This document shows positions 26,303-57,981 of a stretch of 57,981 nt of DNA, piece after piece. The stretch spans positions 1-57,981 of IMG/VR virus record IMGVR_UViG_3300032316_000809; one strand, 5' to 3'. The notes beneath the pieces are model-generated. The model saw only the letters and a program-made list of their open reading frames with translations, was not told the origin of the DNA and ran no database searches. Position 1 is the first letter of the stretch. Each line of letters begins with the position of its first letter. This DNA comes from a virus. A program made the translations under genes and the position numbers.

Positions 26303-27355
26303 ATGGAAAACGAGCTACACTCAAAAGTAAAACAATCCATTCAGACATTGAGGGACAAACAAGCTAGAATTTACTTCTTAGTACAAGATACTAAAGGAAA
26401 TGCGAAGGCTTCTGTTAGACTCATTTATCAAATGGCAAAAACACTAAAAGACAATGGGTTTAACCCAATCATTCTTCACGAAAAAGCAGACTACTCAGGA
26501 GTGGTTGCTTGGTTAAGCGAAGAGTATATGGAATTACCTCACAAGGCAATCGAAGGTCAAAATTTAGAAATTTCACCTGAAGATTTCTTGGTAATACCTG
26601 AAGTTTTTGGTTATATTATGGACCAAGTAAAACAATTACCATGTGCAAAAATAGTATTGACACAACAGTACGCTCACATGTTGGAGACATTACAGCCAGG
26701 TCAATCATGGAATCAATTTGGATTCATGAAATGTATTACAACCTCAAACAAACAAAAAGAATATATCGAAAGAGTGATGAGACAAGCGTCTTTTGACATC
26801 CTTGAACCTTACATTACCGATACATTCAAACCTAAAACAACTCCGTCAATGCCAATCATTGGTATTCACACTAAAGAGCAGAGTGATGCTATTAACATCA
26901 TCAAAACTTTTTATTTAAAATTCCCACAGTACAGATGGTTTACCTTTAGAGATTTAAGAGGACTATCAGAGAAAGAATTTGCAAACTCTGTAAGTGACTG
27001 TTTCCTTACAGCTTGGATTGACGACCATAGTGGATTTGGAACATTCCCATTAGAGTCTATGAAAAGTAACGTACCAGTAATTGGTAAAGTTCCTAACTTG
27101 GCACCTGATTGGATGACTGAAGAAAATGGTATATGGATTACCGACAAAACATTATTTGCAGACGTAATCGCTGACTTTGTACAAAATTGGTTGGAGGACA
27201 ATATTAATCCAGCAATTTATGAAGAAATGAAAAAGACTGTGGACCAATTTTCAGATAAACACAAATTCGAATCAACAGTAGTTACTTTATTTAGTGGTTA
27301 CTTGAATTCAAGAGCTGATTCATTCGAACAACAAATTTCAAAAACAGAAGAATAA
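26303..27355 (+). CDS. GT-B glycosyltransferase-like protein
   Basis: 350 residues. The N-terminal half has RIYFLVQDTKGNAKASVRLIYQMAKTL and a LVIPEVFGYIMDQVKQLPCAK acceptor-domain pattern. The C-terminal half shows PIIGIHTKEQSDAINIIK and the donor-binding GFGTFPLESMKSNVPVIGKVPNLAPDWM (near residue 245), which is the E-x7-E-like helix of GT4 enzymes. There is no signal peptide. It is followed immediately by a GT2 gene, so the pair may act on the same acceptor. Confidence 0.75.
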   Translation: MENELHSKVKQSIQTLRDKQARIYFLVQDTKGNAKASVRLIYQMAKTLKDNGFNPIILHEKADYSGVVAWLSEEYMELPHKAIEGQNLEISPEDFLVIPEVFGYIMDQVKQLPCAKIVLTQQYAHMLETLQPGQSWNQFGFMKCITTSNKQKEYIERVMRQASFDILEPYITDTFKPKTTPSMPIIGIHTKEQSDAINIIKTFYLKFPQYRWFTFRDLRGLSEKEFANSVSDCFLTAWIDDHSGFGTFPLESMKSNVPVIGKVPNLAPDWMTEENGIWITDKTLFADVIADFVQNWLEDNINPAIYEEMKKTVDQFSDKHKFESTVVTLFSGYLNSRADSFEQQISKTEE

Positions 27356-53026: not shown

Positions 53027-53779
53027 TTAATTATTTAATCCTTGAAAACCTCCTAATGAGATTGCGTTTAGTTGTACAATAGACTCATCACCATCTTCAC
53101 TTGTCATTACCGAATATGGAACAGTTGACCCCGAAGGTGCTGTTCCCCCACTAAAACTACCTAACATTCCAATAGTATATTCATACTGTTGATTTACTTC
53201 AATCACAAACCCTAAAGTAACACTTGGAGTTGGTGTTGATGTTGGAGTTGATGCTGGTGTTCCTGTTGGAGTTGGTGTTACAGATGCGGTGCCTGTTGGC
53301 GAAGCAGTAATACTTGGTGTTGGAGTTCTTGTCGCGGTGTTAGTAGGTGTTGGAGTTCTTGTCGATGTATTAGTTGGCGTAGGTGTGTTAGTCCCTGTTG
53401 CCGTATTAGTAGGTGTTTGAGTTGTTGTTGGTGTATTTGTTGGGGTCTTAGTTTGAGTTGGGGTTGGTGTTACAGATGCTGTACCTGTTTGTGTTTGAGT
53501 TGGGGTGTTTGTTGGGGTTGTTGTTGGAGTTGTTGTAACAGATGCAGTTGGAGTTGGTGTAACGTCTCCAGAACATTCAAAACATGTATTCCATGGACCA
53601 TTGTAGATAGTAGCAACCGCAGCTAATGGGGTATCAATACCTGGGCCAACCGTATAACAACTATTTCCTCCATTAATTATAAGGTCATATATTTTACCCT
53701 CAATTAAATCATCTTCTGACTTAATGTATAACTGTGTAGAAGAACTACAAGATGATGCTATGTAATAATTAAATGCCAT
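53027..53779 (-). CDS. Fibre-like protein with Thr/Pro repeat
   Basis: 250 residues. The N-terminal 70 residues ([20 protein letters not shown], and [14 protein letters not shown]) form a small Cys-containing domain. Residues about 73-185 are Thr/Pro repeats of the same type as in the large fibre at 234-3830. The C-terminal 60 residues ([20 protein letters not shown]) form a compact Gly/Ser-rich domain. No start alternatives. The late motif lies 15 bases upstream. Likely a short fibre or head/tail appendage and a second possible glycosylation target. Confidence 0.65.
53220..53565 (-). repeat. Thr/Pro-coding repeat in the small fibre gene
   Basis: About 110 codons of degenerate T-P-T-(N/Q/G)-T units, similar in DNA and protein to the blocks at 1042-1341 and 1571-1875 but on a separate gene 50 kb away. 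Confidence 0.85.
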
Positions 53780-55748: not shown

Positions 55749-56129
55749 TTACTTTTTCAAGTTTTTGATTTGGTCTCTAAGTTCAATCGATTTTTCAAAC
55801 TCTTGGTTTTCAATCGACTTCTTTAATTCCAATTCAAGTTTCTCAATAGACTTTTGATTTTTTTCAAAGGTTTTGATTTGGTCTCTAAGTTTAACCGCAG
55901 ATTCAAAATCTTCATTCTCAATTGCTTTGTCAAGTTGAGACTTTAAAGATTGTAATCCACCTGTTTCTTTAGGTGAGTCTCCTCCTCTATAATAAGTTGT
56001 AACTTTTATCGTACCGTCATCAGATACTCTACTTTGTGATTTCCATTCCCCTTGGGTTAAATCAAAATGAGAGAACATTTCATCGAATGCTCTAAAGATG
56101 TCATTGTAGTTTCTTCTGTTTCCAAACAT
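55749..56129 (-). CDS. Two-UVR-motif protein, candidate ClpC adaptor
   Basis: 126 residues. After an N-terminal 55-residue part (YNDIFRAFDEMFSHFDLTQ, then WKSQSRVSDDGTIKVTTYY) come two UVR motifs: LKSQLDKAIENEDFESAVKL-RD at about 64-86 and a second LELELKKSIENQEFEKSIEL-RD at about 98-120. UVR helical hairpins occur in UvrB, UvrC, ClpC and the ClpC activator McsA. No zinc-binding cysteines are present, unlike McsA. It lies back to back with the clpC-like gene, so an adaptor role is suggested by motif plus neighbourhood, not shown. Confidence 0.7.
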   Translation of the reverse strand: MFGNRRNYNDIFRAFDEMFSHFDLTQGEWKSQSRVSDDGTIKVTTYYRGGDSPKETGGLQSLKSQLDKAIENEDFESAVKLRDQIKTFEKNQKSIEKLELELKKSIENQEFEKSIELRDQIKNLKK

Positions 56130-56302
56130 AATTTTGTTTTTTTAATTCAATTTTATTTATTACCTTTGTGGTATTCAAATAATATACCAACTGAATCTTT
56201 ATGTCAAGATGTCAGGTAAAATAATTATAACCTGACAATTTGTCAAAACATTTGGAGAAGTCCAATATTTGATATTACTTTGTAAAATAAATATAGAAAC
56301 AT
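56130..56302. other. Regulatory region between divergent UVR and clpC-like genes
   Basis: 173 bases with no gene. It holds two perfect inverted repeats: TGGTAT at 56169-56174 with ATACCA at 56184-56189, and GTCAGGT at 56211-56217 with ACCTGAC at 56230-56236. It also has two host-type -7 boxes on the plus strand (TACCTTTG at 56161-56168 and TTACTTTG at 56275-56282). The repeats could be operators or leader hairpins. Confidence 0.6.
56251..56282 (+). promoter_or_regulatory. Host-type promoter of the clpC-like gene
   Basis: TTTG at 56251-56254, 20-base spacer, TTACTTTG at 56275-56282 (one mismatch to TAnnTTTG). The start of transcription would fall near 56290, about 13 bases before the ATG. Confidence 0.6.
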
Positions 56303-57981
56303 ATGAACGACTTAATGGACGACGACGACAAAATGATGAGTAAGAAACAAAAGCAATCCGACAGCGGTACTCCCGTTTTGGATAACTTTAGTCGAGACTT
56401 GAATAAACTTGCGGAAGAAGGTAAATTGGACCCTGTGATTGGACGAGACAGAGAGATTCTACGAATTGCACAGATTTTATCACGTAGAAAAAAGAACAAC
56501 CCTATCATTCTTGGAGAACCTGGTTGTGGTAAGACCGCAATTGTCGAAGGATTAGCAATGAAAATTGTTAATGGAGATTGTCCAAGAAACTTGGTCGATA
56601 AAAGATTAGTTAACCTTGATTTGACTTCAGTTGTTGCTGGTACAAAATACCGTGGACAGTTTGAAGAAAGAATGAAGGTAATTATCGAAGAACTTACCGC
56701 AAACCCACAAATCATTGTGTTTATCGATGAGGTACATACCTTGGTTGGCTCAGGTAACTCTTCAGGTTCAATGGATGGTTCTAACATCTTCAAACCAGCG
56801 TTGTCTCGTGGTGAGATTCAAATTATCGGAGCAACAACTCTTGATGAGTTCCGTAAGAACATCGAGAAGGATGGGGCATTGGAACGTAGATTCCAAAAGG
56901 TGGTTGTTGATGCGTCAACTGTTGACGAGACAATCCAAATCCTTAAAAATGTTCGTGATAAGTATGAGTCTTATCACAAGGTGACTTATAGTGATGAGGT
57001 AATCGAAGCTTGTGTTAAATTGGCTGACCGTTACATTACAGACCGTGAGTTCCCTGATAAAGCATTTGATATCTTGGATGAGGTTGGAGCTCGTATGCAG
57101 ACCGAACTTAAAGTTCCTGAGTCAATCGAAACTTTAAAGAAGGCTGCTGCTGACATCAGACAACAAAAGATTGACGTGGTTAAAAAACAAAACTACGAAC
57201 AAGCTGCTCAGTTGAGAGACAAGGAGAAAAAAGTGTTGGATAAATTAGAAGCTGAAAAACGTAAGTTTGAGGAGTCTATGTCACAGAACAAACAGACTAT
57301 CCTATTGGATAACGTTTATGATGTGGTATCCAACATGGTTAAAATCCCTGTTAGTAAAATGAGTGTTGACGACACTAAATCTTTATTGAACTTGGACAAA
57401 GAGTTAATCGGTAAAGTGATTGGTCAGGACTCTGCGGTTGTTAAGATTGCAAAGTCTATCAAGAGAAACCGTTTGGGTATTAAGGACCCAAACCGTCCGA
57501 TTGGTTCATTTGTATTCTTAGGTTCAACAGGTGTAGGTAAAACTCACTTGGCAAAACAGTTGGCGAAAGAAATGTTTGGTACCGAAGATTCACTTATCCG
57601 TGTGGATATGTCAGAGTACCAAGAGAAACACAGTGTATCTAAATTAGTTGGAGCTCCTCCAGGTTATGTTGGATACGAAGAAGGCGGTTTATTAACTGAA
57701 AAAGTTAAGAACAAACCATATTCAGTTATCTTATTTGACGAGGTGGAGAAAGCTCACAAAGATGTGTTTACCATCTTACTTCAAATCTTGGATGACGGTC
57801 ACGTTACAGATAGTTTAGGTAGAAAGATTAATTTCAAGAATACCTTAATCATCTTAACTTCAAACTTAGGTGTGAAGAAGCTACAAGACTTTGGTACAGG
57901 TATCGGTTTCTCTAACAGCCCTTACGCTAACGAGGAAGCAAAAAAAGAAGTGTTAATGAAAGAGATGAAGAAATTCTTCTC
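56303..57981 (+). CDS. clpC: ClpC-type AAA+ protein unfoldase (partial, 3' end outside window)
   Basis: 559 codons visible from the ATG at 56303; the frame is open to the edge. D1 has Walker A GEPGCGKT (71-78), pore loop KYRG (115-118) and Walker B FIDEVH (140-145). A short middle domain includes a UVR-like KKQNYEQAAQLRDKEKKVLDKL segment (about 294-315), as in ClpC. D2 has GSTGVGKT (407-414), pore loop GYVG and ILFDEVEKAH. GIGF (533-536) gives the I-G-F tripeptide that docks to ClpP, absent in ClpB. The usual N-terminal Clp repeat domain (about 150 residues) is missing: only 40 residues precede D1. It could feed host ClpP with phage-chosen substrates. Confidence 0.9.
   Translation, partial: MNDLMDDDDKMMSKKQKQSDSGTPVLDNFSRDLNKLAEEGKLDPVIGRDREILRIAQILSRRKKNNPIILGEPGCGKTAIVEGLAMKIVNGDCPRNLVDKRLVNLDLTSVVAGTKYRGQFEERMKVIIEELTANPQIIVFIDEVHTLVGSGNSSGSMDGSNIFKPALSRGEIQIIGATTLDEFRKNIEKDGALERRFQKVVVDASTVDETIQILKNVRDKYESYHKVTYSDEVIEACVKLADRYITDREFPDKAFDILDEVGARMQTELKVPESIETLKKAAADIRQQKIDVVKKQNYEQAAQLRDKEKKVLDKLEAEKRKFEESMSQNKQTILLDNVYDVVSNMVKIPVSKMSVDDTKSLLNLDKELIGKVIGQDSAVVKIAKSIKRNRLGIKDPNRPIGSFVFLGSTGVGKTHLAKQLAKEMFGTEDSLIRVDMSEYQEKHSVSKLVGAPPGYVGYEEGGLLTEKVKNKPYSVILFDEVEKAHKDVFTILLQILDDGHVTDSLGRKINFKNTLIILTSNLGVKKLQDFGTGIGFSNSPYANEEAKKEVLMKEMKKFF

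Follow-up and report, generated by a model that had tools for sequence, protein, structure and literature searches.

The stretch of viral DNA analysed here, hereafter the window, is 57,981 nt long (IMG/VR record IMGVR_UViG_3300032316_000809) and ends within a plus-strand open reading frame (56303-57979) that encodes 559 amino acids of a ClpC-like unfoldase and is still open at the window end. A small gene for a protein with UVR motifs lies in front of it in divergent orientation, and the stretch between the two carries paired half-sites and a promoter-like site (Table 1). Portal and terminase are present as well, in line with the original prediction that this is a T4-like phage. Elsewhere in the window, positions 53027-53779 of the minus strand encode a protein with long Thr-Pro repeat runs.

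Table 1. Coordinates of the genes, protein motifs and intergenic sites at the clpC end of the window.
Feature	Position	Strand	Details
Divergent partner gene	55749..56129	-	126 aa, two UVR motifs; Pfam, profile
Half-site pair 1, TGTCA-N3-TGTCA	56202..56214	n/a	
Half-site pair 2, palindrome TGACA-N3-TGTCA	56233..56245	n/a	31 bp from pair 1
Bacteroidota-type promoter-like site TTTG-N20-TTACTTTG	56251..56282	+	one mismatch to consensus
clpC-like unfoldase gene without N-domain	56303..57981	+	559 residues visible out of about 670
Walker A, module 1	56513..56536	+	GEPGCGKT, residues 71-78
Walker B, module 1	56720..56740	+	FIDEVHT, residues 140-146
Y298, equivalent of S. aureus ClpC F436, middle-domain tip	57194..57196	+	
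R305, at the place of S. aureus ClpC R443	57215..57217	+	invariant in 28 aligned rows
Walker A, module 2	57521..57544	+	GSTGVGKT, residues 407-414
Walker B, module 2	57731..57757	+	LFDEVEKAH, residues 477-485
IGF tripeptide, ClpP-docking loop (by sequence)	57902..57910	+	residues 534-536, I534-G535-F536

Pfam matches AAA, AAA_lid_9 and AAA_2 in the window protein, and both AAA+ modules have intact Walker motifs, as is expected of a ClpC; throughout the aligned viral family, these motifs are conserved along with the pore loops and the sensor residues. Where the original prediction described both modules as visible, there are indeed two, the second of which is cut by the window end, and the D2-small domain is seen only in relatives such as L002. 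This nearest viral relative is a whole protein of 670 aa that is 99.5% identical to the window protein over 559 residues, and its locus shares 96% DNA identity with the window across 6.8 kb. The middle domain had been called short and ClpC-like, and it does span 101 residues between fixed columns, the length seen in ClpC rows (the ClpB row has 163 and the ClpA row 47), with a Pfam UVR motif scoring slightly below the cut-off (19.6 versus 21.5). At its tip, the column of Y298 holds a Tyr in 77 and a Phe in three of the 80 viral relatives. The IGF tripeptide, too, lies exactly where it had been reported. Since [ILV]GF is kept in 79 of the 80 relatives, and the comparison of clpC between the window and L004 gives a dN of 0.08 and a dS of 1.8 (near saturation), this reading frame is not a product of chance.

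By tree and by fold, the window protein is of the ClpC type. Among solved structures it matches ClpC best, that of B. subtilis with 643 bits and that of S. aureus with 638, ahead of the best ClpB (576 bits). The L002 protein was modelled with AlphaFold (pLDDT 73, pTM 0.61); the 11 best PDB matches to this model are all chains of ClpC, most of them taken from complexes with ClpP. The NCBIfam models rank ClpB at the top (708 bits, with a cut-off of 1232), followed by ClpA, both far below their cut-offs and with no ClpC model among the hits; however, the ClpB cut-off fits a whole protein of 853 positions, and is thus unfit for judging one that is cut and lacks the N-domain. The closest phage family is PHROG 4871, ‘ATP-dependent protease’. 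In a careful tree of 32 rows (12 viral, 12 bacterial and 8 others, with long rows removed, two of the five huge-phage rows retained, and no ClpA or ClpE/ClpL-like proteins), window-type proteins and Bacteroidota ClpC group together (100/100), against Firmicutes ClpC and ClpB. Within that group the window-type proteins are themselves a clade (100/100, stem 0.82), which is sister to the sampled Bacteroidota ClpC (97/94) and does not lie inside it. A quick tree of 74 rows, with 34 of the 80 viral and 25 of the 80 bacterial rows chosen by hand, is made unsure by several long branches; it likewise unites the 34 window-type rows in one clade (support 100), outside of a group of ClpB, ClpA, Firmicutes ClpC and related proteins (95), and gives no resolution of the join with, and the order among, Bacteroidota ClpC. 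Among the comparison rows, annotation was present only for clpA and clpB of Acinetobacter, and L179-L183, L187 and L188, phage-collection records that resemble bacterial contigs, were named by host and identity. The original prediction had named a firm placement with ClpB as the outcome that would speak against it, and a structure model as a check; the tree and the model, as given above, both came out on the side of ClpC. The tree, the length of the middle domain and the docking loop all rule out an identity as ClpB or ClpA, the window protein showing neither the long middle domain, nor the absent docking loop, nor the grouping of a ClpB.

The bacterial proteins most like it, 80 hits that are 57-64% identical, comprise, going by their titles, 77 from Bacteroidota, two from an ‘uncultured bacterium’ (L112 and L120) and one from Sphingomonadales (L170). 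At least 596 stretches of the viral collection encode some kind of relative, the best 80 of which are 70-99% identical. As such, the supposition that few T4-like phages carry such a protein fails for uncultivated phages, with at least 80 contigs in that range. Among the best 60 of 162 records in the phage collection, a selection that may omit near relatives of the window, uncultured huge phages come out on top with 60% identity, and named isolates reach at most 53%.

What the phage protein lacks is the N-domain, the part of ClpC that recruits adaptors and substrates and helps to hold ClpC off. Alignment to B. subtilis ClpC begins at residue 15 of the window protein and residue 152 of ClpC, and the conserved lead-in of module 1 begins near residue 23, which leaves about 22 residues in place of the N-domain; the original prediction was thus right on its absence, and too generous in allotting about 40 polar residues to its replacement. 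In the 80 bacterial relatives, 158-235 residues precede the matching part. No Clp_N domain was found in any of 42 viral records of the window clpC family, which also rules out an N-domain supplied by a separate gene in these records. The control search matched 9 of 14 genomes and missed B. subtilis, whose ClpC has a Clp_N domain, so this search by itself is imperfect; the reading frames agree with the absence. The ClpC of Sextaecvirus SpP retains Clp_N. Five ClpC-like relatives from huge phages (648 to 707 aa) were also compared: four have at most 39 residues before module 1, and the fifth has 151. These four (L174, L175, L176 and L178) also hold ClpP-family matches in their records (3, 2, 1 and 3), the fifth holding none. 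Two of the huge phages, LR756502 and LR745206, nest inside Bacteroidota ClpC and apart from the window clade in both trees, which points to a second capture of ClpC with the same loss of the N-domain.

The docking tripeptide reads IGF in 50, VGF in 28 and LGF in one of the 80 viral rows, the remaining row (L024) being cut off at that place. Of 15 comparison rows, seven are without [ILVM]GF, namely three ClpB, as had been expected for loops of this type, two ClpE/ClpL-like proteins, one huge phage and Staphylococcus ClpC. Since this last row, taken as ClpC, has AGF, the [IVL]GF pattern is not absolute. VGF is the commoner host form, occurring in 63 of 80 Bacteroidota ClpC. Record-level tests for ClpP (PF00574) covered 72 of the 80 viral loci, many of them in short records, and gave a match in 20 (19 of 42 and 1 of 30). 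Where the record extends at least 32 kb downstream of clpC, this rises to 17 out of 22. All 20 phage ClpP genes lie on the same strand as clpC and 11.7-29.7 kb downstream, and are thus not adjacent to it; in L002, ClpP is encoded about 26 kb downstream. The window ends before that region, and from L002 we infer that its phage, too, would have a ClpP of its own.

These phage ClpP proteins have an intact Ser-His-Asp triad (20 of 20) and cluster with one ClpP of a huge phage in a single clade (100/100), which is nested among ClpP from Bacteroidota and huge phages (92/87); from this tree, three of 48 rows were dropped, being short and distant (L193), interrupted (L210) or the same hit as L205 (L211). 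Positions 48, 62 and 189 in E. coli numbering, which we take to be the docking pocket, are Met, His and Val in 19 of the 20 phage copies, and Leu, Tyr and Leu in 19 Bacteroidota rows (18 distinct), save for one Val at 189. The ClpP in the record of L016 (L229), located at the usual distance, keeps Tyr62 and an unchanged pocket, though the ClpC of its phage has IGF. All 17 testable records with ClpP carry IGF, and all five without it carry VGF. This split follows the tree, and it may therefore reflect a single event.

The protein encoded divergently from clpC has been modelled at low confidence (pLDDT 67) as an N-terminal helix, a beta hairpin and two UVR hairpins. In both hairpins an aromatic residue and an Arg are spaced seven residues apart (F75/R82 and F111/R118), as are Y298 and R305 of ClpC, and all 42 rows compared show this arrangement in each of the two hairpins. 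A profile search found the protein at the same divergent place in 41 of the 80 viral loci, in addition to the window, and its gene is under purifying selection between the window and L014 (dN 0.03, dS 0.25). In 20 other loci this place is taken by a small heat-shock protein, four of four proteins tested scoring above the cut-off of Pfam HSP20. The two never occur together (0 of 80), and 19 loci have neither, or 17 when two contigs that start at clpC are set aside; a partner is thus not always needed. Among 27 family records, Hsp20 is present in six, all with loci that lack the UVR gene, and the UVR gene in 18 of the other 21. On the clpC tree, from which the truncated labelled loci L012, L015, L024, L057, L068 and L072 and the unlabelled L030 and L032 are omitted, starred branches force at least six label changes for UVR and four for Hsp20, which indicates that the partner has been exchanged repeatedly.

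As to what the UVR protein is, the best NCBIfam match is McsA, at 46 bits far below the cut-off of 210, with further matches to C-terminal or UVR regions of UvrB and UvrC, in which such hairpins also occur. In the PDB, too, McsA comes first (E 0.0035). Searching with the fold of the model gave nothing significant, the best match having an E of 0.39 and McsA chains appearing at ranks 5, 9 and 11 (E 0.95 to 1.7), and the phage collection holds no match to the protein. In a Staphylococcus (S. aureus) contig, the UVR profile picks out a protein about 1 kb before clpC that, judged by operon order, is presumably McsA. McsA has a zinc-binding Cys domain; the window protein is without cysteine and therefore without such a domain, so that it has neither the score nor the N-terminal Cys domain of an McsA. 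The McsB kinase was searched for in 15 phage records and in the controls, with no match in either. A 20-sequence profile search also gave a weak match between the N-terminal part of the UVR protein and Hsp20 (E 0.0008).

Between the two genes, the pairs listed in Table 1 are the only TGACA/TGTCA pairs with 8-bp phasing in the window. Scanning 160 nt before clpC, we found such pairs in 38 of 41 UVR loci, 15 of 20 Hsp20 loci (53 of the 61 partner loci) and none of the 17 with neither partner, and never half-sites at phases 5-7 or 9-11. After merging near-copies at 90% DNA identity these counts become 26 of 26, 14 of 19 and 0 of 17 clusters. Outside clpC and this upstream stretch, 599 kb of the 61 partner loci hold a single phased pair. 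Where one pair follows another, the distance is 30 or 31 bp in 20 of 27 cases. The palindrome TGACANNNTGTCA occurs in 18 of 23 whole records (of 72), with 29 sites against two for the backwards control. By coordinates, 23 of the 29 precede clpC, in 17 records, and in a 321-kb record the one before clpC is the sole copy. Of the remaining six, one falls within clpP of G029 and five belong to G038; clpP of L089 contains another copy. In G038, four copies sit among ORFs away from clpC (L239, 3818-4991) and the fifth at 27070, and the exact palindrome is absent from its clpC promoter. A site for a host regulator was considered and rejected, as the palindrome is no more frequent than the backwards control in 13 Bacteroidota genomes (28 matches versus 31), and none lies within 230 nt of the clpC of 80 bacteria. 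We describe the phased half-sites as an operator-like element. The host-type promoter proposed earlier is weakly supported: a sigma-70 scan gave one 9-of-12 site on the right strand, and four sites on both strands where 2.0 are expected, and the Bacteroidota-type site of the window, judged against TAnnTTTG, which we assume to be the consensus, has one mismatch. Within 100 nt of the clpC start, exact sites of the latter type occur in 9 of 78 relatives (0.6 in shuffles), and sites with at most one mismatch in 37 of 78 (7.0 in shuffles).

Taken together, a ClpC without N-domain that usually comes with a ClpP of its own and a small partner protein suggests that the virus probably runs a private machine for protein destruction. 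The reading we favour, and hold to be somewhat probable, is that the phage owns a ClpCP protease whose unfoldase is the product of the window clpC, and whose partner protein provides the targeting or gating otherwise left to the N-domain. The phage ClpC would assemble with and dock, through its IGF loop, on the phage ClpP, for which it may have a preference, and the product of the divergent gene, with UVR hairpins here and as an Hsp20 in sister phages, would take over the role of the N-domain. Sharing one regulatory stretch, the two genes may well be co-regulated. Substrates could stem from the host or from the phage itself, at takeover or while virions are being assembled. On the opposite side we count that ClpP is not encoded beside clpC and is missing from five of the 22 testable records, that 17 loci have no partner, that 5 of 20 Hsp20 loci are without 8-bp pairs, and that the ClpP pocket in the record of L016 forms an exception; we also count the UVR hairpins of UvrB and UvrC, the low confidence of the UVR model and the weak scores of its fold search, and the top rank of ClpB among the NCBIfam models.

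How would such gating work? Engineered S. aureus ClpC without its N-domain binds ClpP and forms head-to-head ring dimers through its middle domains, and does not carry out proteolysis of the tested substrates until F436 is mutated (PMC12583610, PMC5699869). This make-up is also that of the phage ClpC, with its Y298 and Arg, and the UVR protein has the same tip residues; based on this likeness we propose that the UVR hairpins copy the tip of the middle domain and compete for it, which would break the head-to-head contact and release active hexamers. Plastid ClpC traps UVR-domain proteins, and its adaptor ClpF has a UVR domain (PMC8889267). An Hsp20 in the same slot would perhaps deliver unfolded clients rather than act as a gate. 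The full version of this model, in which a ClpC without N-domain is latched by middle-domain contacts, docked on its own ClpP and unlatched by a tip-mimicking UVR protein, with repeated replacements by Hsp20 and a dedicated operator present once or twice in most family records that have it, is put forward tentatively, as a possibility that we would not expect to hold in every part.

The original prediction considered it simplest that the phage redirects the ClpP peptidase of its host. As the simplest reading this no longer stands, since 17 of the 22 testable relatives, including the 99.5% relative of the window, encode a ClpP, and all 17 have IGF; the five without one could still use that of the host, and their VGF is the form that prevails in Bacteroidota ClpC. 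The latter correspondence, however, loses weight if the split in tripeptides arose from a single event, and we consider such hijacking unlikely. Even less probable, in our estimate, is that the protein needs no ClpP at all and, partnered by the Hsp20 or UVR protein, serves as a disaggregase or a chaperone for assembly. The 20 loci with Hsp20 in the partner slot and the five testable records that lack ClpP would be in keeping with this, and Hsp20 is a core gene of cyanophages and a suggested helper of capsid maturation (PMC3037559). Yet the docking tripeptide is kept in 79 of 79 readable rows, those without a ClpP found included, and co-occurrence with ClpP in most testable records speaks against it as well.

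A third possibility concerns only the partner: the UVR protein could be a DNA-repair helper akin to UvrB or UvrC that lies beside clpC by chance. Its NCBIfam matches to those proteins allow for this, but McsA outranks them there, albeit far below its cut-off, and is the best match in the PDB, and the same profile finds the presumed McsA near clpC of S. aureus. Moreover, Hsp20 occupies the same slot in other loci, and the intergenic element tracks the presence of a partner. We hold this to be the most improbable of the alternatives.

The phage-owned ClpCP protease that we favour has several known counterparts. With the ClpC of B. subtilis, S. aureus and Bacteroidota, the phage protein has in common the two AAA+ modules, the middle-domain length, the tip aromatic and Arg, and the docking loop, whereas it differs in lacking the N-domain and in having a divergent partner gene. 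Compared to bacterial ClpCP, 17 of 22 testable relatives pair their ClpC with a phage ClpP, with pocket positions 48, 62 and 189 altered in 19 of 20. The UVR domain is shared with McsA and plastid ClpF, from which the window partner differs by its two UVR hairpins and its lack of cysteine. The engineered S. aureus ClpC without N-domain (PMC12583610) has the same set of domains, with Phe for the Tyr of the phage at the tip; the phage form is natural, and comes with candidate partner genes.

SPO1 Gp53 is likewise a small, adaptor-like phage protein that controls ClpCP, the role proposed for the phage partner; it is an adaptor of host ClpCP that binds host ClpC mostly via the N-domain, with help from the linker (PMC6873191). 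Unlike SPO1, window-type phages bring the motor themselves and, in most testable relatives, the peptidase too. Jumbo phages also encode Clp proteins, with seven in Atu_ph07 (PMC6102473) and, in an overview, ClpP, ClpS, ClpA and ClpX (PMC7824862); across these accounts, phage ClpA, ClpB, ClpX, ClpP or ClpS are named, and their passages on Clp genes mention neither a ClpC that lacks the N-domain, nor a partner slot, nor an operator. In titles and the beginnings of abstracts, the open-access literature likewise gave no phage ClpC without N-domain, no such partner slot and no such element, and no paper joining phage, Hsp20, ClpP, ClpC and jumbo. While phage-encoded Clp proteins and a phage adaptor of ClpCP are thus already in print, new here are the divergent partner slot and the operator-like element in front of a phage clpC without N-domain.

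These findings suggest that the proteolysis accompanying phage takeover need not make use of host ClpP. A phage lineage that is without the N-domain, mostly has its own ClpP with a changed pocket, and swaps partners, constitutes a natural experiment on the gating of AAA+ proteases, and equally on the co-evolution of docking loop and pocket, and the phage ClpC, ClpP and partner form a small, testable set of three proteins.
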